The notes under the pieces were generated by a model, which was not told where the DNA came from, did not search any database, and saw only the letters and a list, made by a program, of their open reading frames with translations. Positions 4,165-32,132 of a stretch of DNA of 64,000 nt are shown here, piece by piece. Source of the DNA: Gallionella capsiferriformans ES-2 (GTDB taxonomy: Bacteria; Pseudomonadota; Gammaproteobacteria; Burkholderiales; Gallionellaceae); contig NC_014394.1 in the NCBI RefSeq assembly GCF_000145255.1, positions 992,001 to 1,056,000 on the forward strand, read 5' to 3'. Position 1 is the first letter of the stretch, and the number at the start of each line of letters is the position of its first letter. The position numbers and the translations under genes are program-made.

Positions 4165-4198
4165 TAAAGCATCTAGTCCGTATGCTTATTGCTCGGAA

Positions 4199-4248: not shown

Positions 4249-4277
4249 AATGAAGCACCCAAAGCAACACCCAACCA

Positions 4278-4351
4278 CCCACGCGGGGACACTTCTCCGC
4301 TGGGGGCATGGTGTCCCCTTTTTTTGTTTTTAACAAAAGGAGAACACCATG
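4278..4351 (+). promoter_or_regulatory. Leader RNA switch L1 (before the 25-aa gene)
   Basis: Stem B pairs GGGGACAC (4285-4292) with GTGTCCCC (4311-4318), followed by a T-run. Stem C pairs CATGGTGT (4307-4314) with ACACCATG (4344-4351) and CC/TTTT with AAAAGG, so it covers both the Shine-Dalgarno sequence and the ATG. Stems B and C share bases and cannot coexist. Confidence 0.8.
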
Positions 4352-4426
4352 TTCCTGATCATTATCGCTTGCTGCATCACCGGTTACGCCATCAGCCGTC
4401 CAGTAGTTCGGGCATTTGGTTTGTAA
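4349..4426 (+). CDS. 25-aa membrane microprotein, copy 1
   Basis: This short gene reads MFLIIIACCITGYAISRPVV followed by RAFGL. It starts 5 bases after an AGGAG ribosome site and ends at TAA 4424-4426. A second copy of the same length at 27626 differs mostly at conservative positions (MLVVFLACCITGYTLSRPII followed by RMLGL). Conservation of the protein with silent and conservative changes, and a ribosome site at both, argue that it is a real peptide. It is hydrophobic with a twin Cys and a C-terminal SRP-x-x-R motif, probably a single short membrane helix. I know no family for it. Function unknown. Confidence 0.75.
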   Translation: MFLIIIACCITGYAISRPVVRAFGL

Positions 4427-4430
4427 TCAA

Positions 4431-4495
4431 CCCTATCGGGGACACTTCCCCGCATAGGGCTTGTGTCCCCTTTTTATTTCAAGGAGACACAAATG
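4431..4495 (+). promoter_or_regulatory. Leader RNA switch L2 (before recE-like gene)
   Basis: Stem A pairs CCCTAT (4431-4436) with ATAGGG (4454-4459) and CGGGG with CCCCG. Stem B pairs GGGGACAC (4438-4445) with GTGTCCCC (4463-4470). Stem C pairs TTGTGTC (4461-4467) with GACACAA (4486-4492) and extends through CC/GG and TT/AA across the AAGGAG ribosome site. A and C are compatible with each other; B excludes both. Confidence 0.82.
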
Positions 4496-5305
4496 AAGCG
4501 CATCGTCAGAGATTTACCAATAAAAATTTACCACTCCAGTGACGCGATTTCGCACAGTGGTATCGTGCAATTGCTCAAGTCGCCGGAGCACTACAAAAAC
4601 TACAAGGAAGGAATCGTCGAGCCCACACCTGCAATGGAGTTTGGTTCTGCGTGCCACTCATTCATCCTTGAACCAGAGCTGTTTGCCAAGGAATACGTGC
4701 TTGCGCCGAAGTTCGACAAGCGCACTAAAGATGGCAAAGAAGCTGCTGCAAAATGGGATGAGGAAAATGTAGGAAAAATCCCATTGGCTGCCGAGCAGAT
4801 AGACGCGCTTGCCGCAATGCGGGTGAGCGTTTTCAATCACACTGGGACAGCCAAAATCTTGTCCGCAGGTGAGGCCGAAACATCCTTGTTTTGGACGGAC
4901 GAATACACTGGCTTGCAATGCAGGATTCGCCCAGACTGGATGTTTGATCGCGGTATTGCAGACCTCAAAAGCTGCATCACCGCCAGCAAGGACGGCTTCT
5001 CGAAAGCAGTTGCAAACCTTGGTTATGACGTTCAAGCGGCGTTTTATATTGATGGCATGAAAGCAGTGACTGGGAAAACGGTCAATTTCTACTTCATCGC
5101 CGTTGAAAAATCCGCACCGTTCTCGACGGCCTGCTACATGGCCAGTCAGGAAATGGTCGAAGTCGGGCGTGCCAAGTATCGCGGCGCGCTTGAGTTGCTG
5201 AAATGGTGTCAGGAAAACAGTCGTTTCCCCGGCTATCAACCCAGTGGTGAGATTGAGTCAATTGATCTTCCGCGCTGGGCAGCAAGCTTCGAACTCGAAG
5301 CCTAA
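4493..5305 (+). CDS. RecE-like exonuclease (PD-(D/E)XK, DUF3799 type)
   Basis: This 270-aa protein resembles the C-terminal nuclease of RecE, which resects double-stranded ends 5' to 3' to load a RecT annealase. Seen motifs are SGIVQLLKSPEHYKNYK and MEFGSACHSFILEP near the N-terminus, then CRIRPDWM, IADLKSC (the D-x-K part of the nuclease core) and YDVQAAFYIDG. Its partner RecT lies two small genes downstream. I chose the ATG at 4493, 7 bases after AAGGAG. Together with recT and ssb it forms a recombination module that may help recircularise or diversify the element. Confidence 0.85.
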   Translation: MKRIVRDLPIKIYHSSDAISHSGIVQLLKSPEHYKNYKEGIVEPTPAMEFGSACHSFILEPELFAKEYVLAPKFDKRTKDGKEAAAKWDEENVGKIPLAAEQIDALAAMRVSVFNHTGTAKILSAGEAETSLFWTDEYTGLQCRIRPDWMFDRGIADLKSCITASKDGFSKAVANLGYDVQAAFYIDGMKAVTGKTVNFYFIAVEKSAPFSTACYMASQEMVEVGRAKYRGALELLKWCQENSRFPGYQPSGEIESIDLPRWAASFELEA

Positions 5306-5314
5306 GACAGTAGC

Positions 5315-5381
5315 AACCCACTGGGGACACGTCCCCGTCAGGGTTTGTGTCCATTTTTTTACTTAAAGGAGACGCAAAATG
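5315..5381 (+). promoter_or_regulatory. Leader RNA switch L3 (before 87-aa gene)
   Basis: AACCC/GGGTT and GGGGAC/GTCCCC make stem A; GGACAC/GTGTCC makes stem B. TTTGTGTC pairs with GACGCAAA to make stem C around the AAAGGAG site; one G-U pair replaces the A-U pair of L2. Confidence 0.72.
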
Positions 5382-5642
5382 GGCATTCTTATCCTCGTAA
5401 TATTAGCAATGGGCATTTTTACAATCATCAAGTGGATGGTTGCATTCATCGCCCCGCGCATCAAACGCACCAAAGCAAAATCCGCTCGAAGCACTTCTCA
5501 ATCAGTGGCAATACCGATTGAGCCAGGCTGGGACGGTTTTGATAAGCCTGCTTTCATTCGGCGCGGCATTCAGTATCCGACGCTCACCGAAAAGAAACAC
5601 GGTCGCACGCGCAAAGCAAAGCCGGTTTTTGCTGCTGCGTAA
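5379..5642 (+). CDS. Small single-pass membrane protein, unknown function
   Basis: This 87-aa protein starts with a strong hydrophobic helix (residues 1-27, GILILVILAMGIFTIIKWMV), then turns basic (PRIKRTKAKSAR). It ends in a Pro- and Lys-rich tail, so it is probably inserted once with a basic cytoplasmic tail. The ATG at 5379 follows AAAGGAG in leader L3. It sits between the recE-like and recT genes. I recognise no family. Confidence 0.65.
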   Translation: MGILILVILAMGIFTIIKWMVAFIAPRIKRTKAKSARSTSQSVAIPIEPGWDGFDKPAFIRRGIQYPTLTEKKHGRTRKAKPVFAAA

Positions 5643-5644
5643 TT

Positions 5645-5712
5645 TAATCCTTGCAGGGCGATTTGCCTCCTGCAAGGGAAGGTGAATCTCCCCGTTTTTT
5701 ATGGAGGACACT
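5645..5712 (+). promoter_or_regulatory. Variant leader hairpin L4
   Basis: A 9-bp stem CCTTGCAGG (5649-5657) / CCTGCAAGG (5669-5677) is followed by a CTCCCCGTTTTTT run and the GGAGG ribosome site. CTCC with the GTG before it can pair with GGAG and the CAC after it, echoing stem C of the other leaders with different bases. Confidence 0.5.
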
Positions 5713-5937
5713 ATGAACAGGAAAATCACCAAACTCGAACGGATAAAATCCAAAGCACTCAGGATTGCGATGACGGCTTTTCTTGCTGACCCATCATTGG
5801 GTTCGCGCCAGGCCAAATCGCTCTTCTCAGAAATCGTGACCCATTTACAAGCGGGCATGGATGACGAGCAGATCGTACAAACCGTTCTTCAAAATAATTC
5901 GACAACCTCGCCAACCGGCAAATTGTCGCTGAGGTAA
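5713..5937 (+). CDS. Small hypothetical protein
   Basis: This 74-aa basic, mainly helical protein is read from the ATG at 5713, which follows GGAGG with ideal spacing. An in-frame ATG 12 bases earlier overlaps that ribosome site and is unlikely. It contains a long helix (ERIKSKALRIAMTAFLADP) and a second helix (AGMDDEQIVQTVLQ). No family recognised. It lies directly before the leader of recT. Confidence 0.6.
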   Translation: MNRKITKLERIKSKALRIAMTAFLADPSLGSRQAKSLFSEIVTHLQAGMDDEQIVQTVLQNNSTTSPTGKLSLR

Positions 5938-5953
5938 CTGTAGTCGCTGTATC

Positions 5954-6025
5954 ACCCCAACGGGACACTATTCCCGGTTGGGGCATGGTGTCCTTTTTTT
6001 GTTTTTTCCAAAGGAGATCACCATG
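5954..6025 (+). promoter_or_regulatory. Leader RNA switch L5 (before recT)
   Basis: CCCCAAC/GTTGGGG and GGGA/TCCC form stem A; GGACAC/GTGTCC forms stem B. CATGGTG pairs with CACCATG and TTT with AAA to form stem C over AAAGGAG and the ATG. Confidence 0.8.
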
Positions 6026-7075
6026 TCGTTACAAGCACTCAAAAACATCCGCAACACCAACAACAACGCAGGTAAATCCGAGCAACAGCAAGGCTTTCCT
6101 GCGATGCTCGAACAGTTCAAAGGTGAAATTACCCGCGCGCTGCCCAAGCACATTAACCCTGACCGCATGGTGCGCATTGCGCTTACCGCGTTTCGCATGA
6201 CGCCGAAGTTGGCAGACTGCGACCCGCGCAGCGTGTTTGCTGCCGTGATCCAATCCTCGCAGCTTGGACTGGAAGTAGGGTTGATGGGCGAAGCTCACCT
6301 TGTTCCATTTGGCGGCCAGTGTCAGTTAATTCCAGGCTATACCGGATTGATGAAGTTGGCTCGGCAGAGCGGATTGGTCATTGATATCTACGCCGAAGCG
6401 GTGCGTATAAACGACAAGTTCGCGCTCAAGCTTGGTATGGAAAGAAATTTGGAACACGAACCACTAACCGCACCGGGCGGCTTTCCCGCGTCCGATGAAG
6501 AGCGTGGGGATGTGGTCGGTTTCTATGCGGTCGGCGTTTTGAAAGATGGTAGTCGCACATTTGTCGCAATGGGGCGCAAAGAAGTAGAGCGCATCCGTGA
6601 TGGCAGTCGTGGCTACCAGGCAGCCAAGAAATACAAGAAGGAATCCACTTGGGATACCGACTTTGTCGCAATGGGGCTGAAAACGGCAATTCGCCGCATC
6701 TGTAAGTTCTTACCGAAATCCCCCGAGTTGGCAACAGCATTGGCGATGGACGAACAAGCTGGGCGACAAAATCTTAACCTCGACGACGTTATCAACGGCA
6801 GCTACACGCCGGTTGTTGATGAAGACACAGGCGAGATCAAAGAATTGGAGGGCGAGGGTGATTCCAAATCCACCAAAATTCAAACAGCTCCGAAAGCAGT
6901 AACCAAACTCGAAAAACTCGAAAAGGTTGCAGCCGCTTTGAGAACGGCCAGTTCCATCGAGGCGCTGGACGAGGTTTATGTCCGCGCTGAAGGTGAGTTG
7001 GAAGACGCAGAGCTGGAAGTTGTCTTGCGCGAGTATCGCAAATGCAAAGATGCGATTAGCGATAGCCTGATTTAA
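6023..7075 (+). CDS. recT: RecT-family single-strand annealing recombinase
   Basis: This 350-aa protein is a RecT homologue, an annealase that coats single strands left by RecE. Diagnostic stretches are RMVRIALTAFRMTPKLADCD, FAAVIQSSQLGLEVGLMGEA, LVPFGGQCQLIPGYTGLMKL and the ARQSGLVIDIYAEAV strand. The conserved core fills residues 30-240. The C-terminal 100 residues (after DVINGSY) are acidic then basic and less conserved, perhaps for binding partners. The ATG at 6023 follows AAAGGAG. Length is near the family norm, with an extended tail. Confidence 0.92.
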   Translation: MSLQALKNIRNTNNNAGKSEQQQGFPAMLEQFKGEITRALPKHINPDRMVRIALTAFRMTPKLADCDPRSVFAAVIQSSQLGLEVGLMGEAHLVPFGGQCQLIPGYTGLMKLARQSGLVIDIYAEAVRINDKFALKLGMERNLEHEPLTAPGGFPASDEERGDVVGFYAVGVLKDGSRTFVAMGRKEVERIRDGSRGYQAAKKYKKESTWDTDFVAMGLKTAIRRICKFLPKSPELATALAMDEQAGRQNLNLDDVINGSYTPVVDEDTGEIKELEGEGDSKSTKIQTAPKAVTKLEKLEKVAAALRTASSIEALDEVYVRAEGELEDAELEVVLREYRKCKDAISDSLI

Positions 7076-7087
7076 CAAGCAACATCC

Positions 7088-7154
7088 ACCTTACGGGGGC
7101 ATTTCCCGTAGGGGTTGTGTCTCCTTTTTATTTTAATTTTGGAGGCACAAAATG
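7088..7154 (+). promoter_or_regulatory. Leader RNA switch L6
   Basis: TTGTGTCTCC pairs with GGAGGCACAA as a 10-bp stem C (one G-U) directly over the GGAGG ribosome site. Here the ribosome site and its partner both differ from the AAGGAG type and still match. GGGGGCA can pair with TGTCTCC as stem B through two G-U pairs. Confidence 0.75.
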
Positions 7155-7343
7155 GGCGCATTGTTTGATATGAAATCATTTTTTGCATGGCTTGAAAGCG
7201 CAGGTGAACATGAGCTTCTGCAACGCAGGGATCAGTTGCAATACGCGATCAACCACAAACTTACCGAGGGCGGTGTAATTGCCGATGCCAGGTATTTGCT
7301 CAAGGAAATCGAGCAAGAAATGCTGGCTAGGACGATGAGATAA
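7152..7343 (+). CDS. Small hypothetical protein
   Basis: This 63-aa acidic helical protein (MGALFDMKSFFAWLESAGEH at the N-terminus) begins at an ATG that closes leader L6. A long predicted helix covers residues 20-60. Its 3' end overlaps the convergent gene at 7327 by 17 bases. No family recognised. Confidence 0.6.
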   Translation: MGALFDMKSFFAWLESAGEHELLQRRDQLQYAINHKLTEGGVIADARYLLKEIEQEMLARTMR

Positions 7344-7644
7344 GCTTCAACGAAAGCGAGTTGCGTCGACCAATTACATCGCTCAGGCGGTTGTATTCGT
7401 CGGTGTCACCGTCAATGATCGCCAACACTAAATTGCGTTCCAAAGCATCTTTGGCATTGCAACGTAGTCGTCTGGCAATCAACGGTTCAACATCTGCAAG
7501 TCGAAGGTCTAGCGAATCGCAAAGGCTTTCAAATTCTTGTTGATCGAGAACTTCAGGCGTGGAAAACAGGATGTGTTTTTTGCATTCCAGTTCTTCTTTG
7601 CCTCCAGTAATAACCGTGAAGGATGGTTTTCGTGATTCGTTCAT
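7327..7644 (-). CDS. Hypothetical protein, convergent to its neighbours
   Basis: This 105-aa acidic protein is the only leftward ORF I accept inside the rightward block. It begins MNESRKPSFTVITGGKEELE and continues with LDLRLADVEPLIARRLRCNA, which has the look of a folded helical domain. No leader switch precedes it. A TTGATC...TTAGACT stretch just upstream on its strand could be a promoter. It might be a small regulator or a moron-like insertion. No family recognised. Confidence 0.5.
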   Translation of the reverse strand: MNESRKPSFTVITGGKEELECKKHILFSTPEVLDQQEFESLCDSLDLRLADVEPLIARRLRCNAKDALERNLVLAIIDGDTDEYNRLSDVIGRRNSLSLKLISSS

Positions 7645-7667
7645 GCGTCCAGTCTAACACGATCAAA

Positions 7668-7748
7668 ACCCAACGCGGGATCACCATATCCCGGTTGGGG
7701 CATGGTGCAAACGTTTTTTAATGCAAATCAAAAAGGAGAAACACCATG
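7668..7748 (+). promoter_or_regulatory. Leader RNA switch L7 (before ssb)
   Basis: This copy has lost GGGGACAC, but stem B is kept by other bases: CACCAT (7682-7687) with ATGGTG (7702-7707). Stem C pairs CATGGTG (7701-7707) with CACCATG (7742-7748), which includes the ATG. CCCAAC/GTTGGG and GGGAT/ATCCC form stem A. The replaced stem B is good evidence for its pairing. Confidence 0.82.
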
Positions 7749-8177: not shown

Positions 8178-8185
8178 TTGAAGCA

Positions 8186-8327
8186 CTCACCCCGGGGGGA
8201 AACATTCCCCTTGGGGATGCTTCCTTGCTGGTGGCTTAAAAACTACCCGCCCACACGGGACACACCAAAACATCCCGTCGGGTGCTTTGGTGTGTCCCAT
8301 GCGGGATTTAACCAAGGAGGCATCATG
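8186..8327 (+). promoter_or_regulatory. Double leader hairpin L8 (before primase)
   Basis: Two units lie in tandem. The first (8189-8216) is CCCC..GGGGA/TCCCC..GGGG. The second has a 13-bp stem GGGACACACCAAA (8258-8270) / TTTGGTGTGTCCC (8287-8299) and an alternative ACGGGA/TCCCGT stem. No T-run follows, so this copy does not look like a terminator. The ribosome site is AAGGAGG. Confidence 0.65.
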
Positions 8328-9398: not shown

Positions 9399-9443
9399 GC
9401 GCAACCAATCTCGCATTGGCCAAGTAAACCGATGGCCGTTTTA

Positions 9444-9463
9444 CCCCGCTTGCGGGGCTTTTT
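9444..9463 (+). terminator. Intrinsic terminator after the primase gene
   Basis: A perfect CCCCGC-TT-GCGGGG hairpin is followed by CTTTTT. It ends the first rightward transcription unit. Confidence 0.85.
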
Positions 9464-9575
9464 ATGGCGCACTCCACGAGTGCGTCACAAAAAGAAAATT
9501 CATGCTCATCGCGTAATGCCTTGAGTTGATATTGGTGGCTGGCCAATCGAAATAAACAGAAGACGCGCAAGCGTC
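9460..9575 (+). promoter_or_regulatory. Transcription-unit head repeat, copy 2
   Basis: About 105 bases here are nearly identical to 18436-18543. They include the TTTATGGCGCACTC start, TTGATA at 9526-9531, ATTGG/CCAAT and the GACGC-GCAA-GCGTC hairpin at 9562-9575. The hairpin stem differs from copies 1 and 3 at both partners (A-T to C-G). The copy directly follows a terminator, so it probably starts a new transcript; no good -10 box is visible, so an activator may be needed. Confidence 0.72.
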
Positions 9576-9616
9576 ACTAAGGAATTACCAATAGCAGCAC
9601 AAGAAGCATTTAATTT

Positions 9617-9686
9617 AACCCAACCGGGGACACTCTCCCCCTTGGGGCATGGTGTCCCTTTTTATTTCAAAAAGGAGATCACCGTG
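9617..9686 (+). promoter_or_regulatory. Leader RNA switch L9
   Basis: CATGGTG pairs with CACCGTG across the GTG start, where a U-G pair replaces U-A. CCTTTTT pairs with AAAAAGG over the ribosome site (stem C). GGGACAC/GTGTCCC is stem B. Confidence 0.78.
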
Positions 9687-10964: not shown

Positions 10965-11023
10965 CAAATAAACGCTGAGCATGAGTGGTTTTACATGCAC
11001 AGCGTTCGACGAGGTTTTTTCTA

Positions 11024-11094
11024 AACCCTAGCGGGGACACATCCCTGCCAGGGGCTTGTGTCCCCTTTTTTTGTTTAAAAAGGAGACGCAAGTG
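11024..11094 (+). promoter_or_regulatory. Leader RNA switch L10 (before helicase gene)
   Basis: CTTGTGTC (11055-11062) pairs with GACGCAAG (11085-11092) and CC/TTTTT with AAAAAGG, giving about 15 pairs of stem C over AAGGAG and the first base of the GTG start. Stem B is GGGGACAC/GTGTCCCC. The extended CUUG/CAAG end is specific to this copy and matched on both sides. Confidence 0.82.
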
Positions 11095-13755
11095 AAACCA
11101 ATGAGATTGAAAAAAATTAGCGCAGCCCTCATGTGGCTGCCGGGTTTTGAGCCGGCAGACAATATGCCTGTTGTATTGCAAGGGCCAGATGTTCCGCATC
11201 AAGAAGCTGAAATCATCCGGTTTCCCAAGTCGGTAGCTGCCGTAGTTGAAAAAATCAAGGCAGTGTGGCCGTGTCTTAATGCCGTTACCTTGTCCAGTCT
11301 ATCGGGCAACGTTTCAAAATTCGACGCGAACATTGCCGCAATCGAACTCCTGCGCAAGCTGGAAGACGAAAAAAGGCAACCCACCACGGAAGAACGGGAC
11401 ATTCTCAACCGTTACACAGGGTGGGGCGGTATTCCGCAAGCGTTCAATGATGACCAAAAGGATCAAGCATGGGTTACTCGTGCTGCACGCATCAAGGCGC
11501 TATTGAACGAAAGCGAACACAAATCCGCTGAAGCCAGCACACCGAATGCGCACTACACCGCACCAGAAGTTATCGAAGCGATGTGGCGCATGGTGGAACG
11601 GCTGGGTTTCAAGGGTGGCCGCGTTCTTGAACCCTCTGCGGGAACTGGATACTTCCTCGGCGCGATGCCGCAAGAAATTGCCCAAAAAAGCACTGTCACA
11701 GCGATTGAACTCGATCAACTGTCGGCGCGTATCCTGAAAACTCTATACGGGGATTTTGGGGTAAACGTCATACAAGACGGGTTTGAGGCCACAAAGCTGC
11801 CAGCGGGGTTTTACGATCTGGCGATCAGCAATGTGCCATTCGGGAATTACCAAGTACCGGAATTGCGTAATGTGCCTTACGCCAATTTCCTGATTCATGA
11901 CTATTTCTTTGCGAAAGCGATGGAAGTTGTCAGGCCGGGTGGGTTGGTGGTGTTCATTACGTCCTCCGGGACAATGGACAAGCATGACGATAAGGTGAGG
12001 CAGTATCTTGGCAGCAAGGCTAATTTGGTGGCCGCAGTTCGCTTACCCAATACCGCTTTCAAGAAAATCGCCAACACCGAAGTCACCACCGACATACTGG
12101 TATTGCAAAAACCGATGGAGGGACGCAGCAGTAAAAAAGGCTGGATGGAAATTATCACCCTGCCTGAATCGTCCCCGATCTACGAGCCATGCAAGGAATA
12201 CTGGAGAAGGCAGTCAATCGCCTGCAACCAGTATTTTGCCGCGAACCCTCAATGGGTTATCGGCAAGCTAACGCTGACAGAAAACGGCTACAGCAAATCA
12301 ACAGGGTGTGTATTCGAGGGAGACTTTGAAGAAACACTGGCTCAAAAGGTGTCCTTGTTACCGGAGAATATTTACACGGCAATTCAAAACAGCGAACAGC
12401 CGAAAGAGCTAAAACCCACACTCCTGGGGTACAACGAACAAGGTCGCCCAGGTTTTCGGGTGATTAACGGACAGGTGTATGAAACAACAGACGGGTTGGA
12501 AGCGTTGCAGTTCATCGCGCCGCAGAAGACCTTGGAACGCATCATGGGAATGTGCAGTATTCGTGATGCGGCACGCAAGATTATTCGGTCACAAGTAGAA
12601 ACGGAGAATGAGGCGATTCTTGCCACTTATCGGTTGATGCTGAACATTGAGTATGACAACTTTGTTGCCCAATACGGAAATATTTCCGAGAAGGCAAACC
12701 GGAGAGCTTTCAAAAGCGATCCCGATCTGCCGTTGCTGATGTCGCTGGAACGCTGGGATGAGGAAACTCAAAGCGCCGAGAAAGCAGACATATTTACTCA
12801 GCGCACGGTGGGGGTGTTCAAACGGGTTGATCATTGCGAAACATCGCAAGATGCGTTGCTGGTTAGTCTGTCCGAGTGTGGCAGCATCGTCGAGAATCGG
12901 ATTGCTGAATTGCTTGGGAAACCGAGTTGCGCAGCCATGAAGGAACTCGAAGAGAGGGGCGCAGTGTTCCTTGATCCAGAAACTGACCATTGGGAAACCA
13001 AGGACAGTTATTTGTCAGGTGATGTCCGTAAAAAACTCTCTGCCGCTAGGGTGTCGGGTGAGCGTTACTGCCGAAATGCGCAAGCGTTAGAGGCCGTGAT
13101 TCCAGACGATTTAACACCCGGCGAGATCGGTGCGCGCATCGGTTCAACGTGGATACCAACCGGTGATTACGAAGCCTTCCTTGATGAAACTTTGGAGTGC
13201 AACGGAAACGCCGTGACGTTCAACCAGGCAGCCGGCGCGTGGAATATTGAAACGCACTACAGCACCAAATATTCGATACCAGCCACGCAAAAGTTTGGCA
13301 CTGAACGGGTCAATGCAGCAGATCTGTTCGACCAGGCGTTGAATCAAACCGTGCCGACCGTGTATGACCCTGACAAAGTTAATCCCGACAAGCGTGTGGT
13401 CAACCAAAAGGAGACCATCGCAGCACGGGAGAAACAGCAATTGCTCAAGGATACATTTCAGGAGTGGTTGTGGAAGGATCAGGAACGGGCAACAAGATTG
13501 GCAAGACTTTACAACGACACCTTCAATTGTGTTGTGTCACGTCAGTACGATGGCCAGCATTTGGTATTGCCGGGATTCTCTCGGATATACCGTTTGCACG
13601 ATCATCAGAAAAACGCGATCTGGCGTATTGTTGCAAGTCAACGTAACACCCTGCTTGCCCATGTTGTAGGGGCTGGCAAGACACTGACTTGTATCTGTGC
13701 GGGTATGGAGTTGCGTCGTTTGGGCAGAGCCAGTAAACCGATGTATGTGGTTCCA
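11092..13755 (+). CDS. DNA methyltransferase-helicase, exon 1 (split by group II intron)
   Basis: The N-terminal 888 residues of a giant protein common on plasmids and ICEs. An N6-adenine methyltransferase-like domain shows RVLEPSAGTGYF (S-adenosylmethionine motif I, near residue 178) and AISNVPFGNY (catalytic NPPF-like motif, near 245). The start of a superfamily 2 helicase shows LLAHVVGAGKT (Walker A, near 859). The reading continues KPMYVVP and is then cut exactly at the intron boundary. Joining 13755 to 16156 restores VVPNHMLHQF, the expected family sequence. The start is GTG 11092 in leader L10. The role is unknown; protection of the element's DNA or work during transfer are guesses. Confidence 0.88.
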
Positions 13756-14371
13756 GTGCGACGTGATGTCGTGTAAGTAATTGTTTATTAGCATAAATTT
13801 GCTATATAAACCTGTCGTTTTCCCGGCAGTAGCCTAAGAGGGCAGGCGTAGCTGGTAACGGCTGGGTCTGAAGCCCCTCTGACAATGTAGCCCATTCCGA
13901 AAGGATTAAGCTGAAGCCGTGAGGTGGATGTGTAACTGCGAGCATTACGTGGTAGGGAACTAGGCTTGGAAGTATGGTGAACGTAAGTGAAGTGGTAATA
14001 AATTCCGTAACATACGATCTGCCAAAAATGCTGACAGGCAGTAACCAAAATGGTAAGGGAGTGGTCTTGAGATTTGGTACTTCTCAAGCGGAAACAAAGT
14101 CTCCCCGGAAAATAGCCACCACCTAACCTTCCAGTGTTATTTACATGGAACACGATAAGCCCGTATATCCGCCCGCAAGGGCAAGTCAACCGCAAGGAAG
14201 ACTGATGGATGTGCGGGTATAGGATGCCAGAAAAAGCGAATGTCGGCCTGTAATGGGTTGAATAGGGATTGAGGCGAAAGCTAACATTATCCTACCCGAA
14301 AGGGTGCAGACTTCTGGTTGGTCTCTCTTTGCAAGAGAGTTTGAAGAACCTTTTAAATGGAGGTAAAGCAA

Positions 14372-16042
14372 ATGACGACTATGAATCTTGTAGTTGGAGC
14401 GATCTCTAACGAGGAAGTGGATTGGCACAGTTTCGACTGGGCGAAGATTCATCAAATCGTAAAGAGGCTGCAAACGCGTATTGCAAAAGCAACACGGGAA
14501 GGAAAATACGGCAGGGTAAAAGCCTTGCAGTGGATTCTGACTCACTCGTTCAGCGGCAGAGCATTAGCTGTAAAACGAGTTACTGAAAATCAAGGCAAAA
14601 AGACACCGGGCGTGGACAAGGTTGTATGGGACACACCGGAACTAAAAGCTGAAGCTGTTATGTCACTCAAGAGAAAAGGCTATCAGCCTCAACCTTTGAG
14701 AAGGGTATTTATACCCAAAGCAAACGGAAAGATGCGTCCGCTAGGGATTCCGACGATGAAAGACAGAGCTATGCAAGCGTTGTATTTGCAAGCACTAGAA
14801 CCCGTCTCGGAAACCAAAGCAGATCCAAATTCTTATGGATTTAGACCCATGAGAGCGAGCAGAGATGCGGCAGCACAATGCTTCAACTCGCTGGCGCAGA
14901 AATACGCTGCAAAATGGGTGTTAGATGCTGATATATCCGGCTGCTTCGACAACATCAACCACGACTGGCTGCTGAACAACATCCCTATGGATAAAGTAAC
15001 GCTTCAGAAATGGTTGAAATCTGGCTTCAAATGGAATGGACAGTTGTTCAATACGGAGGCAGGAACGCCGCAAGGCGGAATTATTTCGCCAACGTTAGCG
15101 AACATGACTTTGGACGGAATGGCAGAAATGCTCCAGAAACGCTTCGGCGCAACGGGGAGCAGAGAAGCCGCAAAGTACAAGGTCAACCTGATTCGATATG
15201 CAGACGACCTCGTAATAACTGGTACAACGAAAGAAGTATTGGAAGAGGTGAGGGAATTGATGGCGGAATTTTTGAAGGTCAGAGGATTAACGCTGTCCGA
15301 AGAGAAAACCAAAATCGTGCATATCGAAGAGGGCTTTGACTTTCTCGGATGGAACGTGCGCAAGTACGATGGAAAATTGCTCATCAAGCCTGCGAAGAAA
15401 AACGTGCAAACGTTTATGCGTAAAGTCCGAGGGATAATCAAAGAATCCAAGACAGTGAAGCAAGAAAATCTGGTGAAAATGCTCAATCCAGTAATCAGGG
15501 GTTGGGCGAATTATCACCAGAACCAAGTGGCGAAAGAAACCTTTTCCAAGGTGGATCACGCTATTTGGAAACAGCTTTGGCAGTGGGCTTGCAGAAGACA
15601 TCCCAACAAATCAGCGGCATGGGTGAAGTCGAAATACTTCATGCGTGATGGCTTGAGAAATTGGGTGTTTGGTACAACGGTTGAGGATGATAAAGGCGAA
15701 GAGAGAAATGTGAAGCTGGTGAAAGCCAGTGACACACCGATTAAACGCCACGTCAAAATCAAAGGAACAGCAAACCCTTATGACCCTGAATTTGAGACAT
15801 ACTTTGAAGAAAGGCTCGGCCTATCTATGAAGGAAAGTCTCAGGGGAAATAACAGGTTGAAAGTTCTGTGGTATGCACAAGACGGTTTATGTCCGAAATG
15901 CGAAGAGAAAATAACGAAAGAAACGGGATGGAATCTTCATCACGTCCTTCCAAAAGCTCAAGGCGGTGACGACAAAATGACTAACTTGGAATTGCTGCAT
16001 CCGAACTGCCATAGGCAGCATCACAGCCAAGAAAGGAAGTAG
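14372..16042 (+). CDS. ltrA: Group II intron reverse transcriptase/maturase with HNH endonuclease
   Basis: This 556-aa intron-encoded protein has all expected domains. The reverse transcriptase has [30 protein letters not shown] and catalytic [12 protein letters not shown] near residue 275. A maturase (X) domain includes [13 protein letters not shown]-terminal HNH endonuclease has [18 protein letters not shown] and [11 protein letters not shown]. All catalytic residues seem intact, so it could promote splicing and retrohoming. The ATG at 14372 follows GGAGG; an ATG 15 bases earlier overlaps that site. The gene lies in intron domain IV. Confidence 0.93.
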
Positions 16043-16080
16043 TGGGCTGGCTCTGGTTAAACAGGGCTTTGCAGAGGCTT

Positions 16081-16114
16081 GAGCTGTATGCGGGGAAACT
16101 CGCACGTACAGTTC
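16081..16114 (+). ncRNA. Group II intron domain V
   Basis: A 34-nt hairpin, GAGCTGTATGCG ... GAAA ... CGCACGTACAGTTC, with an AGC catalytic triad in the 5' strand and a two-base bulge opposite. This is the catalytic core of the ribozyme. Confidence 0.9.
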
Positions 16115-16155
16115 TTAGGGGGGGATGGTGCAGTAATGCACTGTCTCTACCCGAC

Positions 16156-18408: not shown

Positions 18409-18415
18409 AGTTCTT

Positions 18416-18441
18416 CCACCCCTTGATTGGGGTGGTTTTTT
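18416..18441 (+). terminator. Intrinsic terminator after the helicase gene
   Basis: CCACCCC/GGGGTGG (7-bp stem, TTGATT loop) is followed by six Ts. It closes the second rightward transcription unit. Confidence 0.85.
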
Positions 18442-18553
18442 ATGGCGCACTCAACGAGTACGTCACAAAAAGAGAATTCATGCTCATCGCGTAATGCCTT
18501 GAGTTGATATTGGTGGCTGGCCAATCCAAATAAACAGAAGACGAGCAATCGTC
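18436..18553 (+). promoter_or_regulatory. Transcription-unit head repeat, copy 3
   Basis: Nearly identical to 9460-9567: TTGATA at 18504-18509, ATTGG/CCAAT inverted repeat, and the GACGA-GCAA-TCGTC hairpin at 18540-18553. It follows a terminator, as does copy 2. Confidence 0.72.
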
Positions 18554-18580
18554 AATGAAGCACCGAAGCAATATCCAATC

Positions 18581-18650
18581 AACCCACACGGGGACACTTC
18601 CCCGTATGGGTTCGTGTCCCCTTTTTTTGTTAAAAAGGAGATACGAAATG
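18581..18650 (+). promoter_or_regulatory. Leader RNA switch L11 (before radC)
   Basis: TTCGTGTC (18611-18618) pairs with GATACGAA (18640-18647). Compared with TTGTGTC/GACACAA in L2, bases on both strands have changed and pairing is kept. CC/TTTTT pairs with AAAAAGG over the ribosome site. Stem A pairs AACCCA with TGGGTT and ACGGGG with CCCCGT. Confidence 0.83.
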
Positions 18651-19498: not shown

Positions 19499-19501
19499 CC
19501 A

Positions 19502-19571
19502 CCCAACTGGGGACTTCGTTCCCCTTGGGGCGTGATGTCTCCATTTTTTTCATTAAGAGGAGATCACCATG
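19502..19571 (+). promoter_or_regulatory. Leader RNA switch L12
   Basis: GTGA pairs with TCAC and TCTCC with GGAGA around a 2-base bulge (stem C). TCTCC here matches GGAGA perfectly where most copies have a mismatch. Stem A is CCCAA..GGGGA / TCCCC..TTGGG. The stem-B 5' arm is altered to GGGGACTTCG. Confidence 0.68.
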
Positions 19572-20405
19572 TTTTTTGAAACGACGATAGACAAGCGCAG
19601 CAAAAAAGCGATGATTGATTTTTTGGCTGGTCATTATAGATACAACACCATGAACGGCTGGAATCACTCAACAAGCTATGCGCACTGCATAAAGGTCAAT
19701 AAACTTGGCCTGACTTCCGAACAATCGAATGCGGCATACGACATGCTGCAAACAGATTTTTGGAATGAAATTGACGAACCAATTGCAGATTTCACCTCAG
19801 AAATGAGTGGGAGCTACACGATTGGAACTAACGGACGATCCAACGGCTACCTCGTTCTCTATAAAAGCGAGTATGAATTGACTGGATTCAAATCTTATTG
19901 CCGCACCTGTGGGCAACGAAACTTCAAGCTGGTGCATGATGCTGCGAAGTCAGCGGATCATGCCTTTATTGAGGCGTATGTGTTTCGCAATGGCGGGTGT
20001 TGGGTAGATGCAATTTACCTGGCAGAACCCGCCATCGCAGCAATCGAACTGTCGGATGAGGAGAAACTTTCCATGGTTCAATCAGCGAAACTTGCTTGCA
20101 AAGACGCGACAATCGGCAATAAGTGTGGTGCATGTGGCACTGAAGGCGAACATGGCCGTGTTAATTACACGCGACCACAAAAACGCTTGTCAGTGTCAGG
20201 AAAGAATGTTGACCAGAATGAAGATTTTTCTGAATGGTCGTTGCCTGAACTTCGTAATCGCGTTGAACTGGTTCGCCGGTTCGATCAAGCGTGTGACGAA
20301 ATTCGGGATAATTTCATTGGGCTTATTAGCACCTGTAAGGTTGTCGAAGAGGTCGTAATGATCCCAAAGACTGTGAAGCGGATTGAATGCTGTCACGCAT
20401 CTTGA
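19569..20405 (+). CDS. Hypothetical protein with two CxxC pairs
   Basis: This 278-aa soluble protein begins MFFETTIDKRSKKAMIDFLA. It contains two likely metal-binding knuckles, CRTCGQ (near residue 113) and CGACGTEGEHG (near 182), and a central SGSYTIGTNGRSNGYLVLY. It may be a zinc-binding DNA or RNA protein, but no family is recognised. The ATG follows GAGGAG in leader L12. It stands alone as a monocistronic unit between two leader switches. Confidence 0.65.
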   Translation: MFFETTIDKRSKKAMIDFLAGHYRYNTMNGWNHSTSYAHCIKVNKLGLTSEQSNAAYDMLQTDFWNEIDEPIADFTSEMSGSYTIGTNGRSNGYLVLYKSEYELTGFKSYCRTCGQRNFKLVHDAAKSADHAFIEAYVFRNGGCWVDAIYLAEPAIAAIELSDEEKLSMVQSAKLACKDATIGNKCGACGTEGEHGRVNYTRPQKRLSVSGKNVDQNEDFSEWSLPELRNRVELVRRFDQACDEIRDNFIGLISTCKVVEEVVMIPKTVKRIECCHAS

Positions 20406-20435
20406 AATAAGTAATTAGTCGGTTGATCCGACTCC

Positions 20436-20507
20436 AACCCAACTGGGGACACCTCCCCATTGGGGCATGGTGTCCCTTTTTTGTTTCATCAAAAGGAGAA
20501 TGCCATG
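20436..20507 (+). promoter_or_regulatory. Leader RNA switch L13 (before ardC)
   Basis: CATGGTGT pairs with ATGCCATG (two wobble pairs) and CC/TTTT with AAAAGG (stem C over the ATG). CCCAA..CTGGGGA / TCCCCA..TTGGGG is stem A and GGGACAC/GTGTCCC is stem B. Confidence 0.78.
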
Positions 20508-21585: not shown

Positions 21586-21600
21586 CAGCTAATTAACTAA

Positions 21601-21666
21601 CCCACACGGGGACACTTCCCCGTCAGGGTTTGTGTCCCCTTAATTTTTTTAAGGAGACACAACATG
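21601..21666 (+). promoter_or_regulatory. Leader RNA switch L14 (before PRTRC parB)
   Basis: TTGTGTC (21630-21636) pairs with GACACAA (21656-21662). The inner pair is TTAA/TTAA, where other copies have TTTT/AAAA, so the inner stem has also covaried. Stem B is GGGGACAC/GTGTCCCC; stem A is CGGGG/CCCCG with CCC/GGG. Confidence 0.84.
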
Positions 21667-23352: not shown

Positions 23353-23354
23353 CA

Positions 23355-23427
23355 ACCCAACCGGGGACACTTCCCCGCAAGGGCATGGTGTCCCTTTTTT
23401 GTTTTTCCAAAAAGGAGATTTACCATG
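23355..23427 (+). promoter_or_regulatory. Leader RNA switch L15 (before PRTRC E)
   Basis: CATGGT pairs with ACCATG over the start, and CCTTTTT/AAAAAGG covers the ribosome site. GGGACAC/GTGTCCC is stem B. Confidence 0.76.
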
Positions 23428-23892: not shown

Positions 23893-23907
23893 GGGGAGGA
23901 TGACGAA

Positions 23908-24117: not shown

Positions 24118-24169
24118 ATCATGGAGTCATCAGTGAGAGCAAGGTTAAAAGCCTTATCAAAGGGTGACT

Positions 24170-24230
24170 CCCCAATCAGGCGGGCAGGGCTAGTGATAGT
24201 CCCGCCTGCTTCTCAAGAGGAGCAAGCATG
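24170..24230 (+). promoter_or_regulatory. Hairpin leader before PRTRC F
   Basis: An 8-bp stem CAGGCGGG (24177-24184) / CCCGCCTG (24201-24208) overlaps an inner alternative GGGCTA/TAGTCCC. TGCTT and CTC then can pair with GAG and AAGCA across the AGGAG ribosome site and start. The layout matches the leader switches but the bases do not. Confidence 0.5.
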
Positions 24231-25295
24231 CGTAATAGCATTGGTTCAACTCGTGCATTCGTCAAAAAATGCACGAAAGGAAGACCTGTTGCTGCCTCCT
24301 CCGGGGGCGTTGCCACTTGTTTTCTGACGCTGCCCTTCATTTCTCAGAACGTACCATTTCGCTCGGTGCATGAAGAGAATGACAGGAAATGGTTGCAGGC
24401 TGCCAAGTTGTGTGCCGAGCTGGTTGGGGATGATGAACTTGTTATCAACAGCAAAACGACAGCGCGCGACATCATCAGTCAATCATTATCTGTATGGGCT
24501 TCCAGGCACTGCGCAGATATTCAGGTGTTGGACAGCTTCGAGCTTCTGGCTGCGCTGGATCATGATGCGTTCGATCTGGACTACGAACAGAAGCCTGAAA
24601 AGGATCTTCTGTTAATCGGAATTCAGTCACAGCAAGCAACGCCATACATCAACGTCAAAGCGAAAGTCGAGAGGTTGGAAGCGGAGTATCCGGGGCTCGG
24701 TCGAACTGCGATCAATTATGCAGAGTTGGCCGGATACCGGACGTTCACGGCGTTTACGCCGCAAGTGGCATTTCATCACGCCTCATACCTGTATTGGTAT
24801 GGGACGGACAGTGATGAAGATTTCGAGCAAGAGCGGGGCGCGTTTGGTGATGAGGACGAGATTGATGAAGGCAGCTTGATGCCCAGTCAGTTTTTAGCTT
24901 CATTTCCAGACTACCTCTTAAATGGAGAAGTATTGGAACGCGATGTGATTCAACGCATCGCGTCCGGCACGGACGAAGCGGGTGAAACGGCTAAGGTCAT
25001 CTTGTCCATCATGGACTTGATAGACCAGGATGTCAGATTGCCTTATTCCAACAACTACTGCGGTGAGTCTGCCTTTTTCTCCTGTTATATGGGAGCCGGG
25101 GACGACATGCTTGGACGTGTGCTGGATGATTTTTATCAAAGCACCGGCGATGGCGAATACACCGACATGTACGGAATTGCAGAAGTCAAACTCGACAAGC
25201 GGTCATTTCTGAAATGGAAAACCGAAATGGAGAAAGGCTTTGCGCTCTACACACAACTGGATCGCCTGATGCGTTGCATCGGCGATGTTCAATAG
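24228..25295 (+). CDS. PRTRC system protein F
   Basis: This 355-aa protein corresponds to PRTRC protein F. It begins with a basic leader, then LTLPFISQNVPF, and has ARDIISQSLSVWASRHCADI and a highly acidic middle (TDSDEDFEQERGAFGDEDEI). I used the ATG at 24228 after AAGAGGAG. A 68-codon ORF at 24121-24327 also starts after a fair ribosome site but overlaps this gene by 100 bases; I regard it as spurious. Function unknown; alpha-helical. Confidence 0.83.
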   Translation: MRNSIGSTRAFVKKCTKGRPVAASSGGVATCFLTLPFISQNVPFRSVHEENDRKWLQAAKLCAELVGDDELVINSKTTARDIISQSLSVWASRHCADIQVLDSFELLAALDHDAFDLDYEQKPEKDLLLIGIQSQQATPYINVKAKVERLEAEYPGLGRTAINYAELAGYRTFTAFTPQVAFHHASYLYWYGTDSDEDFEQERGAFGDEDEIDEGSLMPSQFLASFPDYLLNGEVLERDVIQRIASGTDEAGETAKVILSIMDLIDQDVRLPYSNNYCGESAFFSCYMGAGDDMLGRVLDDFYQSTGDGEYTDMYGIAEVKLDKRSFLKWKTEMEKGFALYTQLDRLMRCIGDVQ

Positions 25296-25307
25296 GAGGA
25301 AGACATC

Positions 25308-26039
25308 ATGCAAGTTCCAGCAGCATGTATATCAAGCACACAGAAGGTGTACGAGATGTCCAGTGCGATCTTGTTGTACAGGGAACGCCACGGACAGACC
25401 GTATTTGCTTCGGTGCATGACGTGAAAGTAAGCAAAGAGGGCGCTGCAACCATCGAAGCGGGCACGCCGGTTTCCAAGACTGGCCTCATGAAGATGATGC
25501 AAACGCTCGTGCCGGAGGATTGCGCGCCGGCACAGTTGTTGGGGGATCACATCCTTGCCAAAGGGAGCGACCACCTCGCGTGGTATTGCAAACCTCAAAA
25601 GCGACAGGTGTGGTTCAAAAACGATGAGCTTGGGCAAGATGTAAGCGCAACAACCGATCATCCAGGGCTGGTGTTCATCATTGGCAAGGGGCATTGGTAT
25701 GTGTTCGCCGTAAAAGGCAACGAGCGCCCAACATCGGGCACACCACTTTTTGTTTCTCCATATCTCAACGTATGGAAGGGTGGGCATATCTGTACCGGGA
25801 ATATCGAAACGCCGAAAGGCGCGATGAAGTTCAGTACGGAGGCGTGGGAAGAAGCGTTTTTCAGGAGCTACTTCACCCATCCTAACCAGCATGAAAAAGG
25901 TGCGCTGACCAAGTATCGCGGCGGGATATTCGCTCTCTGGCGTGCGTTGATGAAAGGTCGAGCATTTCCGACTAAATCATTGGTGTCGTCAGGCGAGACG
26001 CTTGGTCAGGTATTTGAAAGGACGGTGAAGCGTGGATAG
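25308..26039 (+). CDS. PRTRC system protein B (E2-like)
   Basis: This 243-aa protein matches PRTRC protein B, assigned in the literature to a prokaryotic E2-like (ubiquitin-conjugating) family. It has SSAILLYRERHGQTVFASVH near the N-terminus. A conserved block VSPYLNVWKGGHICTGNIET follows, whose Cys is the candidate thioester residue. The ATG at 25308 follows AGGAGGAAG. It overlaps the next gene by 8 bases. E2 activity is inferred from the family. Confidence 0.85.
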   Translation: MQVPAACISSTQKVYEMSSAILLYRERHGQTVFASVHDVKVSKEGAATIEAGTPVSKTGLMKMMQTLVPEDCAPAQLLGDHILAKGSDHLAWYCKPQKRQVWFKNDELGQDVSATTDHPGLVFIIGKGHWYVFAVKGNERPTSGTPLFVSPYLNVWKGGHICTGNIETPKGAMKFSTEAWEEAFFRSYFTHPNQHEKGALTKYRGGIFALWRALMKGRAFPTKSLVSSGETLGQVFERTVKRG

Positions 26040-26634
26040 CCGTGATGTTGCGCTGCAAAGCGTGATGCCCACGGTGATGGTGCCACGCTACGCTGAACTG
26101 GAAGAACTGGACACGCCGGGCAATCGAATTTTGATGGCCGAAAACGGTGTCTGGCTGGAAGTTTGCCACGCGTGGCTGTATGCGCGCATTCCGGTTTCAC
26201 TCCCTTTGCGCATCCCGGTTCCATACGGGGTGATTTACGAGGAGTTGCGATTCGGTTTTGGCAAACTGCCCAAGGCGATGGTCGCTCAGTTCATCGAGCA
26301 AGCCAGAGTTCGTAGTCCAAATGAGTGTGCGGCATGGGGTGTCTGGAATCAACGGACGGACTCGTGGAAGCTGCTGATGCTCGAAGAGCGTTCAGTCGGA
26401 ACCGATCATATCGAAGTCAACCTGCCCACACTGGAGGAGGGCGAACATAGGGTGATGGATCTGCACTCACATGGACTGCACGATGCTTTCTTTTCCAGGG
26501 AAGACAACCAGGATGACCGAGGCGAGACAAAAATCGCCGGAGTCATTGGAAATTTAGATAAGCCAGAGGTGACAGCATCTTTTCGCCTCTGTGCGAACGG
26601 GGTGTTTCTGCCGCTTCCATTTGAAAGCCCGTAA
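26032..26634 (+). CDS. PRTRC system protein A (JAMM protease-like)
   Basis: This 200-aa protein starts with GTG 26032, inside the end of protein B. It carries the full JAMM zinc-protease signature: a Glu in SPNECAAWGVW, then MDLHSHGLHDAFFSREDNQD (H-x-H, S and D ligands). Such proteins remove ubiquitin or ubiquitin-like tags. In this cassette it would process or remove protein C, which is inference. Upstream is a beta-rich PVSLPLRIPVPYG segment. Confidence 0.86.
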   Translation: MDSRDVALQSVMPTVMVPRYAELEELDTPGNRILMAENGVWLEVCHAWLYARIPVSLPLRIPVPYGVIYEELRFGFGKLPKAMVAQFIEQARVRSPNECAAWGVWNQRTDSWKLLMLEERSVGTDHIEVNLPTLEEGEHRVMDLHSHGLHDAFFSREDNQDDRGETKIAGVIGNLDKPEVTASFRLCANGVFLPLPFESP

Positions 26635-26651
26635 GGGCGGAAAGGAAACAC

Positions 26652-27479
26652 ATGATCCATAACATAGATTCACGCCTGCTCACGCGGGCAGTAAAGGTGG
26701 TGTTGGTCGGAGCGGGTGGTACTGGCTCGCACGTCTTGCGACGGCTGGCCAACATTCACCTCGCTATGGTCGAGCTAGGGCATCCGGCAGGTTTGGATGT
26801 CATTGTTATCGATCCAGACACGGTGTCTAAAACCAACGTGGGGCGGCAGAATTTCTGGCCCTCCGATGTCGGGCAGTCGAAGGCTGAAATACTGGTCAAC
26901 CGCTGCAATATGTTGATGCAAACGGGATGGGTAGCTGAAGCCGCGAAAGTCACTGACGATACGCAGTTTTCCAATCCGGACATCGTGATCGGTTGCGTCG
27001 ATAACAGGAAGGGCAGGGCTGGGATACTCAAGGCGCTCAAACGCAGTGTGTATTCATCAGCCTACTACCTGGATATTGGCAATCGTGAGCATGATGGACA
27101 GGTGGTATTGGGCGAGGTCTTCGGGGCGAGCTGCAAACGGGAAAATCGTTTGCCTCACGTTGCCGACCTCTATCCAGACATTATTGATGGGTCGCGAGAC
27201 GATACGGACGATACGCCCAGTTGCAGTTTGGCTGAGGCGTTGGAAAAGCAGTCCTTGTTCATCAACGACACGATGGCGAATGCGGCATGCAATTTGTTGT
27301 GGGAACTGTTCCGTTACGGGCAGCTCACGCATCACGGCCAATTCGTCAATATCAGGTCAGGGCGTGTAACGCCGCTGGCAATTGACCCCGAAACGTGGAA
27401 ACGTTTTGGGTTTGAAGCAAAGCTCAAACCAAAGCGGTGCAGTAAGGTCGCAGAGGTGAGGGTGGCGCAGGACAGGTAG
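26652..27479 (+). CDS. PRTRC system ThiF-family (E1-like) protein
   Basis: This 275-aa adenylating enzyme has the Rossmann motif VVLVGAGGTGSHVLRRLA (residues 14-31), IVIDPDTVSKTNVGRQNF with the ATP-contacting Arg, and VIGCVDNRKGR. The later DTPSCSLAEALEKQSLFIND holds the candidate catalytic Cys. These are the features of ThiF/E1 enzymes that adenylate a C-terminal Gly. It is the last gene of the cassette. PRTRC protein D (actin-like) is not present in this window. Confidence 0.9.
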   Translation: MIHNIDSRLLTRAVKVVLVGAGGTGSHVLRRLANIHLAMVELGHPAGLDVIVIDPDTVSKTNVGRQNFWPSDVGQSKAEILVNRCNMLMQTGWVAEAAKVTDDTQFSNPDIVIGCVDNRKGRAGILKALKRSVYSSAYYLDIGNREHDGQVVLGEVFGASCKRENRLPHVADLYPDIIDGSRDDTDDTPSCSLAEALEKQSLFINDTMANAACNLLWELFRYGQLTHHGQFVNIRSGRVTPLAIDPETWKRFGFEAKLKPKRCSKVAEVRVAQDR

Positions 27480-27484
27480 CAACG

Positions 27485-27628
27485 AGTCCCATCCTCGATT
27501 TTGAGGATAGGGTCACGATGAATCCCCTTGTTGGTTAATAGCCAAGAGGGGGCTTCACCAAGTTTTTTGCAGACTTGGTGAAGCCTCTTTTTGGCTTCCT
27601 TATCAATTAACCCAAGGAGATCATTATG
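27485..27628 (+). promoter_or_regulatory. Divergent leader switch L16 (before second 25-aa gene)
   Basis: Three stems are stacked: CCTC..GAGG (27491-27508), CCCCTTG..TTGG/CCAA..GAGGGG, and a 13-bp GGCTTCACCAAGT/ACTTGGTGAAGCC followed by TCTTTTT. CTTCCTT can pair with AAGGAG. The scheme of competing hairpins and a ribosome site is kept with other bases. The 13-bp hairpin with its T-run may also act as the terminator of the PRTRC operon. Confidence 0.6.
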
Positions 27629-27868: not shown

Positions 27869-27889
27869 TCGTAGGTCGCAGTGTCAATA

Positions 27890-27921: not shown

Positions 27922-27929
27922 TTTTTTTT

Positions 27930-32130: not shown

Positions 32131-32132
32131 TC

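Follow-up and report, generated by a model that had tools for sequence, protein, structure and literature searches.

The stretch of Gallionella capsiferriformans ES-2 considered here (contig NC_014394.1, positions 992,001 to 1,056,000; 64,000 nucleotides (nt), hereafter the window) belongs to a host genome of a single contig of 3.16 Mb and carries, in its first 28 kb, a module of a mobile element. Most genes of this module are preceded by a similar RNA leader, including those for a DUF3799 PDDEXK nuclease, RecT, SSB, RadC, an ArdC-like protein, a ParB-domain protein and PRTRC protein E. Two covarying RNA families, neither with an Rfam match in the searches made, are thus found in the module, one before most of its genes and one at its operon heads. 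Together they would show how a mobile element silences a long recombination, anti-restriction and partition block and then opens all of it at once, and the combination of a transcription lock with a translation lock in one 70-nt leader would be an unusual design.

Each leader can form three stems: hairpin A at its 5' end; stem B, in which the upper 5' arm and loop of A pair with the segment following A; and stem C, in which that same segment pairs with the region of the Shine–Dalgarno (SD) sequence and start codon. A preliminary description of the window had counted about 15 such leaders; the copies that it listed all exist, though their number is 13. When each is folded alone, from A to the start codon, the minimum-free-energy structure is A+C in 13 of 13 (−22.0 to −40.1 kcal/mol), with at least three of the four SD bases paired in 12 and at least two AUG bases paired in eight; the translation start falls within or adjoins stem C, as had been proposed. 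The five arm pairs quoted for stem C, and the exchange of stem B to CACCAT/ATGGTG at 7668, were likewise found in place by reading. All 10 copies of the first-listed direct-repeat family in the first 30 kb of the window are among the 13 leaders. By reading, gene 5701 has an unrelated hairpin upstream, and 27628 has an SD-like repeat without hairpin A. The reported absence of leaders after 28 kb also holds, A+B+C being present at 0 of the 22 genes from 28 to 64 kb.

Beyond the window, a RecT search across genome contigs led to 36 loci, with titles such as Gallionella, Nitrotoga, Rhodocyclaceae, Nitrosomonas and Accumulibacter. These, two plasmids and window 1–28 kb make up 39 element loci, some of them near-identical, in which we ran a detector that searches for hairpin A only, ahead of an SD-led start, and then scores B and C at −9 kcal/mol or better. 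On the gene strand, A precedes 251 of the 382 SD-led genes and A+B+C 175, against 17 and 0 of 153 on the opposite strand and 22 and 2 of 160 in 12 control stretches (six from the same genome, six from two other genomes). One strand of a Delftia plasmid, with 24 genes, yielded 14 A and 8 A+B+C; the first 50 kb of the IncA plasmid pRA1 yielded 4 A and 0 A+B+C among 50 genes, and stretches of Thiothrix and Polaromonas plasmids 0 A+B+C in 25 and 24 genes. The RecT of the window shares 99% identity with its counterpart in a Gallionella sp. assembly. Plasmids of Sulfuricystis multivorans (J5B) and Simplicispira suum (SC1-8), both strains with complete plasmid records, also carry the module, their leaders being very different in sequence; a DNA query of 231 bases, made of head plus leader, had no match in the plasmid collection. 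The leader family is real and wider than first reported.

Since the leaders are too divergent in sequence for column counts, their arms were instead swapped between leaders, the 14 nt following A (x) being set against −17 to +3 (y) for stem C; stem B was scored between x and the upper 5' arm of A together with its loop. Among 82 leaders of less than 80% identity, stem C scored −10.84 with matched and −8.35 with swapped arms (z −9.0), and stem B −11.88 versus about −8.39 (z −12.5), with 0 of 5000 permutations reaching the matched value for either stem. In a set of 62 leaders of less than 75% identity, which includes some false hairpins, z was −5.7 for C and −9.4 for B, and with swaps restricted to one element (43 leaders) −4.3 and −6.9, again 0/5000 each. 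The AUG-side part of C alone gave z −4.0 (0/5000; 25/5000 within elements), the loop part of B alone z −3.0 (16/5000), and a control upstream segment was flat against y (z +0.9). As matched arms outdo swapped ones, B and C are both selected in the leader family and covary in homologues, in line with the three competing stems of the preliminary description. RNAalifold, given the 13 window leaders as aligned by MAFFT, predicted stem B and its inner hairpin in place of A+C, and the covariation term reached only 0.21; that alignment misplaces the 3' part of the leader, hence our use of arm swaps.

What had been missed is that the leaders at 4276, 9616 and 18580 come after a repeat of 121 nt, a structured RNA in its own right, here called the operon-head RNA. 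A profile of its three copies finds it in related loci, with an architecture of HP0, HP1 (variable stem, loop YRGCUGR), a linker AAAYAAACAG and, in heads of the Gallionella/Nitrotoga type, HP2 with a GNRA loop, one pair of which is A-U in 8 of 15 and C-G in 7 of 15. In 22 aligned copies, 90.0% of the HP0/HP1 cells are paired, versus 73.3% on shuffling (0/500). Model R1 has 120 matches (E ≤ 1) in 61 sources, 118 of them on the gene strand, and no match in the 12 control stretches or in 8 stretches around radC RNA. For the 80 distinct heads in an alignment of 85 matches from 26 of the 61 sources, which was fitted to model R1, helix cells are paired in 91.8% versus 58.0% shuffled and covariation stands at 0.790 versus 0.185 (0/500 for both). 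Double-sided pair changes were reached by 170/500 shuffles of this set and 95/500 of the 22-copy set, in which further pair types were reached by 380/500; in sliding controls of the head alignment, all three counts collapse. The head helices contain 63 G-U as against 17 A-C oppositions, which favours an RNA read from the gene strand.

The heads and the leaders go together. Of the 120 head matches 112 were kept, the eight weakest being dropped, and, with no demand on gene length, 106 of these have an SD-led start with hairpin A in the next 190 nt, with C in 97 and B in 97 at −8 or better; random positions gave such a hairpin and start in 186/1120 cases on the gene strand and 61/1120 on the other, and none of these head and leader counts are independent, as some loci are near-identical. 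Within the genus, the head model matches at E ≤ 0.001 in 9 of 41 genomes, that of G. capsiferriformans ES-2 among them; five of the nine are strong (E 1e-18 or better) and four weaker, a patchy distribution that fits a mobile element. Across 229 genomes of the class, the head model was strong in ES-2, and 11 others gave 20–23 bits, which we take as chance. An exact head pattern matched one of 398 genomes of the phylum, which is not that of ES-2 (its heads have AGAAG where the pattern has AGCA). Viral contigs gave 16 pattern hits, of which only L111 is supported by the head model at E < 0.001 together with leaders.

The energies of growing transcripts point to an ordered folding path. In the window, the prefix ending at the T-run folds best as B in 11 of 13 leaders (all but those of genes 7746 and 18648), and, by reading, the T-run lies directly 3' of B in 11 of 13, not adjoining it at 7668 and being interrupted at 21599. 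From the 82 leaders, 44 with strong B and C were chosen: before the SD is made, B is more favourable than A in 35 of them, and at full length A+C is more favourable than B in 38. In 31 chosen from the 62, 24 pass through B, 25 end as A+C and 19 follow the order A, B, A+C, the B phase averaging 21 nt where present. Thus, of the alternative states of the preliminary description, the competition of B with A and C is borne out, whereas B as a stable state with a free start is not, given its loss to A+C at full length. As B is favoured chiefly during transcription of the T-run, before the SD has been made, it more likely acts on RNA polymerase. In most window leaders, stem B is a GC-rich hairpin followed at once by a U-tract, as in an intrinsic terminator; the T-run is patchier family-wide: T has a frequency of 75% at the three positions directly after B in the 44 leaders, at least five T fall within 8 nt after B in only 26 of these 44, and TTTTT occurs between A and the SD in only 9 of the 62 non-redundant leaders. 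By these models, B resembles a hairpin that ends or pauses transcription, and A+C a lock against the ribosome. We conclude that the predicted folding path is the conserved feature, with B probably doubling as a terminator most clearly in Gallionella-type elements.

The heads often lie shortly behind a promoter or an intrinsic terminator. Head 1 begins 12 nt downstream of the −10 box of a sigma-70-type promoter, and promoters are similarly placed at some other heads; heads 2 and 3 come after terminator-like hairpins. Among 48 non-redundant heads, a sigma-70 score of at least 9 of 12, ending 9–16 nt upstream, is found at only 6 (3/1000 in the control), and a terminator-like hairpin within 120 nt upstream at 27 (40/1000 in the control); with the promoter score relaxed to at least 8, eight heads have a promoter only, 25 a terminator only and two both. 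Terminator-like sites, with those of both strands counted together, exceed shuffles in two scans (29 versus 10.4, standard deviation 3.3; 17 versus 7.2, standard deviation 2.7). By fold, the T-tract of the terminator preceding a head pairs with a downstream A-rich or GGAAA stretch into a further hairpin, T2, which is also seen in folds of internal heads of other elements. A separate terminator-like hairpin at 27846–27928 scores 35.1 bits with the Leu_leader model, under its cut-off of 50.

Features of the leader module (window coordinates; all on the + strand)
Feature	Position	Details
Sigma-70-type promoter	4136..4164	TTGACA-17-TATTTT; 10 of 12 consensus matches; before head 1
Operon-head RNA copy 1	4177..4251	model R1 77.3 bits
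Leader 1	4276..4348	A 4278-4304, C 4307-4351, T-run 4319-4325; before micropeptide of 25 amino acids, 4349-4426
Leader 2	4429..4492	A 4431-4459, C 4461-4492; before DUF3799 PDDEXK-like nuclease
Leader 3	5314..5378	A 5316-5344, C 5345-5377
Leader 4	5952..6022	A 5955-5983, C 5984-6025; before RecT
Leader 5	7085..7151	A 7089-7113, C 7115-7150
Leader 6	7668..7745	A 7669-7699, C 7701-7748; B arms CACCAT/ATGGTG; T-run not adjoining B; before SSB
Variant leader	8250..8305	one long hairpin, fold without C stem; before Toprim/primase-like gene 8325
Intrinsic-terminator-like hairpin	9444..9457	before head 2
Hairpin T2	9458..9494	5' arm is the terminator T-tract; by fold
Operon-head RNA copy 2	9505..9578	model R1 85.9 bits
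Leader 7	9616..9683	A 9619-9646, C 9648-9686; downstream of head 2
Leader 8	11023..11091	A 11026-11053, C 11054-11093; before gene 11092 (weak methyltransferase-domain match, below Pfam cut-off)
Intrinsic-terminator-like hairpin	18416..18435	before head 3
Hairpin T2	18436..18472	5' arm is the terminator T-tract; by fold
Operon-head RNA copy 3	18483..18556	model R1 86.9 bits
Leader 9	18580..18647	A 18582-18611, C 18612-18646; downstream of head 3; before RadC
Leader 10	19499..19568	A 19502-19529, C 19531-19571
Leader 11	20434..20504	A 20438-20464, C 20466-20507; before ArdC-like gene
Leader 12	21599..21663	A 21600-21629, C 21630-21662; before ParB-domain gene
Leader 13	23353..23424	A 23356-23383, C 23384-23427; before PRTRC protein E

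Against this backdrop, we tentatively advance the proposal, for which we would claim somewhat less than an even chance, that the leaders are two-step co-transcriptional locks and that the head RNA of each gene group likely equips the polymerase to pass them. Briefly, the nascent leader would fold into A, then into the terminator-like B, and then into A plus the start-hiding C, in the order predicted from the energies. At the T-run, B would stop or pause an ordinary polymerase; a transcript that gets through would refold to A+C, with A reclaiming its 5' arm from B and thereby freeing x to form C, which would hide the transcript's own SD and start. The head RNA would load or alter the polymerase so as to make it lock-resistant. 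Two considerations lead to this last step. Many hairpins in series behind few promoters would starve the distal genes, so that the polymerase would have to become resistant. Further, and as our main reason for proposing antitermination, a head that lies behind a terminator and has no clear promoter would be useful only to a polymerase that has come through. The heads are positioned just after a promoter and again after internal terminators, where an RNA signal of the put, nut or conAn type would be expected to sit; indeed, a cis RNA near a promoter (head 1), with the hairpins at 9444 and 18416 and the B hairpins downstream, is the placing known from processive antitermination. C might be opened to ribosomes by a factor, by a coupled ribosome, or only during the brief interval for which B lasts. 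The earlier suggestion of one signal acting across the element is plausible, because an operon-head RNA common to gene groups exists. A more sweeping version, which we regard as possible but doubtful, is an element-wide RNA operating system, in which a new class of cis-acting head RNA, set just behind the promoter and renewed after internal terminators, lets the polymerase pass gene-by-gene locks and makes expression of the module of about 20 kb all-or-none.

Several observations weigh against this proposal. Antitermination is deduced from the placing of the heads alone, and a lock on both steps leaves no obvious ON state. Between A and the SD, 45 of the 62 non-redundant leaders lack TTTT, and B is still matched there (z −7.8), so B must serve something besides classical termination. 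The promoter claim depends on single good sites, since promoter-like sites are not above shuffles (2 versus 7.0 and 4 versus 4.1, with 12.0–18.3 kb left out); the best promoter score upstream of heads has a mean of 7.36 versus 7.16 shuffled, and 13 of the 48 heads have neither promoter nor terminator. A stricter, gene-based detector finds a leader within 150 nt after only 54 of the 112 heads (6.8 expected), and the six heads without a leader include three that are promoter-linked (L016 1945, L038 7190 and L042 6049); in the first of these (L016 1945–2371, on plasmid pSTJ2 of S. multivorans J5B), a tRNA-Asp gene comes after the head. Conversely, the Simplicispira and Delftia plasmids carry leaders with only weak matches to the head model. 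Pairing of the SD in the fold does not discriminate leaders (39 of 62) from control genes (50 of 92), and the control upstream segment retains a weak residual signal against x (z −2.2, 75/5000). Finally, the whole genome encodes one NusG-family (PF02357) protein and hence no RfaH-type paralogue; control of the RfaH type was rejected on this ground, a factor of another family being possible.

The same evidence bears on other readings. The main rival is the translation switch of the preliminary description, or a related timer, which would make B a short-lived ON state, in which the SD emerges free for as long as B persists and the mRNA then decays to A+C, with the T-run as a pause or an unstructured loop. 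The conservation of B even without a T-run, its exclusion of C and the nascent order A, B, A+C would all suit such a device; nevertheless, the T-run directly after B and the preference for B exactly there (each in 11 of 13 window leaders), as well as the defeat of full-length B by A+C in 38 of the 44 chosen leaders, make it rather unlikely. The sharing of one architecture by many genes, along with a common CCC/GGG lower stem (though the detector itself demands CC..GG/GT), could instead recall a riboswitch, in which the state of all leaders is dictated by a ligand or protein bound to A (or C). Yet the loops and stems of A vary among the leaders of one element, on which account a single sequence-specific leader ligand was rejected; no sequence block beyond the detector letters is seen in 70 leaders chosen from the 82, whereas the head RNA has such a block, and a conserved ligand-binding core in or beside A was not found in these 70. 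We hold the riboswitch to be improbable.

Coupling to the ribosome that ends the upstream gene, which would cover the 5' arm of A and let B form, draws on the spacing of genes: 12 window leaders have an upstream gene on the same strand, and in 7 of them A begins within 17 nt past its stop codon. The remaining five lie 32–325 nt away, however, leader 1 has no such gene, the three head-linked leaders come after non-coding RNA, and no SD-led short frame ends near A in 10 of the 13, all of which renders this coupling quite improbable; neither it nor leader-peptide control is general among the window leaders. Lastly, the hairpins could act at the level of DNA, as single-stranded promoters or primosome sites used on conjugative entry, of the Frpo/ssi type. 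Their strand-specificity, their position ahead of genes near the relaxase and the recombination and anti-restriction genes themselves would be in keeping with such signals, but stem C tracks the region of the start codon, the excess of G-U (63) over A-C (17) in the head helices speaks for RNA, and the site upstream of head 1 is a double-strand sigma-70-like one, leaving a DNA-level role very unlikely. Of all these readings, the double lock fits the largest share of the observations.

RNA-based processive antitermination is described for HK022 put, EAR and the bipartite conAn of plasmid pLS20 (PMC8955417). By analogy, the architecture proposed here would work like the control of long operons by put, EAR or conAn: in these too, a structured RNA lies near the promoter of a long operon with many terminators, and conAn serves a conjugation operon (PMC8955417). 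Our case differs in the RNA itself, in the Gram-negative hosts, in that antitermination is deduced from placing, in the sharing of an arm between each terminator-like hairpin and an SD lock, and in the recurrence of the head after internal terminators. The head RNA shares with the JUMPstart/ops element, which RfaH reads, its hairpin form and its place close to the 5' end of long operons acquired horizontally. A loop resembling GGUAGCUG is presumably a further likeness; the model of JUMPstart RNA (RF01707), run at E ≤ 10 on the window region and on L016 3000–3800, matched neither. Translation attenuators of the ermC kind have alternative hairpins, the last of which hides the SD, and the leaders are alike in this; unlike them, the leaders oppose the pairings 1:2 and 3:4 to 1:3, and not to 2:3. 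An ermC-type leader peptide, sought as an SD-led short open reading frame ending in or near A, is wanting in 10 of the 13 window leaders; the frames present in the other three are the upstream micropeptide, a single short frame and a stretch of the upstream gene read in frame.

The JUMPstart stem-loop is also mentioned in PMC2864571, which covers two further RNAs. The radC RNA (RF01754) sits, as the leaders do, before genes of mobile-element type (PMC2864571). It is a neighbour of the leader in other elements and not the leader itself: its model has no match at E ≤ 10 in window 4000–28000, none in 41 relatives, the ES-2 genome included, and seven matches in 4 of 299 genomes of the phylum, all of one genus. 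One of the seven (L061; L064 9952) is directly followed, by the detector, by a leader with A, B and C; another (L058; L069 13373) is followed by A and B with a weak C, and others show an A-like hairpin by eye. Leaders of this kind may thus be common to different head RNAs, radC RNA among them. The STAXI motif likewise occurs near SSB, antirestriction and integrase genes, and, unlike the leaders, is described as repeated pseudoknots (PMC2864571); no Rfam match of such a family was found here. The Rfam check proposed for the leaders returned no matching family. Over the gathering score, nothing in the window was matched except for two group II intron hits; at E ≤ 10, a plant microRNA model on the opposite strand (4303–4355, E 0.79) and PhrS (19535–19626, 15.6 bits, E 5.6) overlap leaders far below the cut-off and are taken as chance. 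Among the literature matches listed, which in several searches were the best 12–20 of more and covered few subscription journals, no printed description of the leader or head RNA was recognised.

Some other features of the region deserve mention. A long hairpin like that of the variant leader also precedes the toprim gene in L016 (9335) and L017 (11379). The first window gene downstream of head 1 encodes a conserved hydrophobic micropeptide of about 25 amino acids, which occurs in the window at 4349–4426 and 27626–27703 (MFLIIIACCITGYAISRPVVRAFGL; MLVVFLACCITGYTLSRPIIRMLGL); it is absent from the feature lists of L016 and L017, of which the plasmid gene table is incomplete, and has relatives in 20 of 24 other loci scanned, some with two copies. 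A group II intron with a reverse transcriptase-maturase-HNH protein (13811–16155) is lodged between gene 11092–13776 and a helicase gene of the module. Outside the leader module, the window carries a chemotaxis cluster (MCP, CheW, response regulators, CheZ and a CheA-like protein; 37394–46164) and two HipA-like genes (32124–33470 and 57830–59182).

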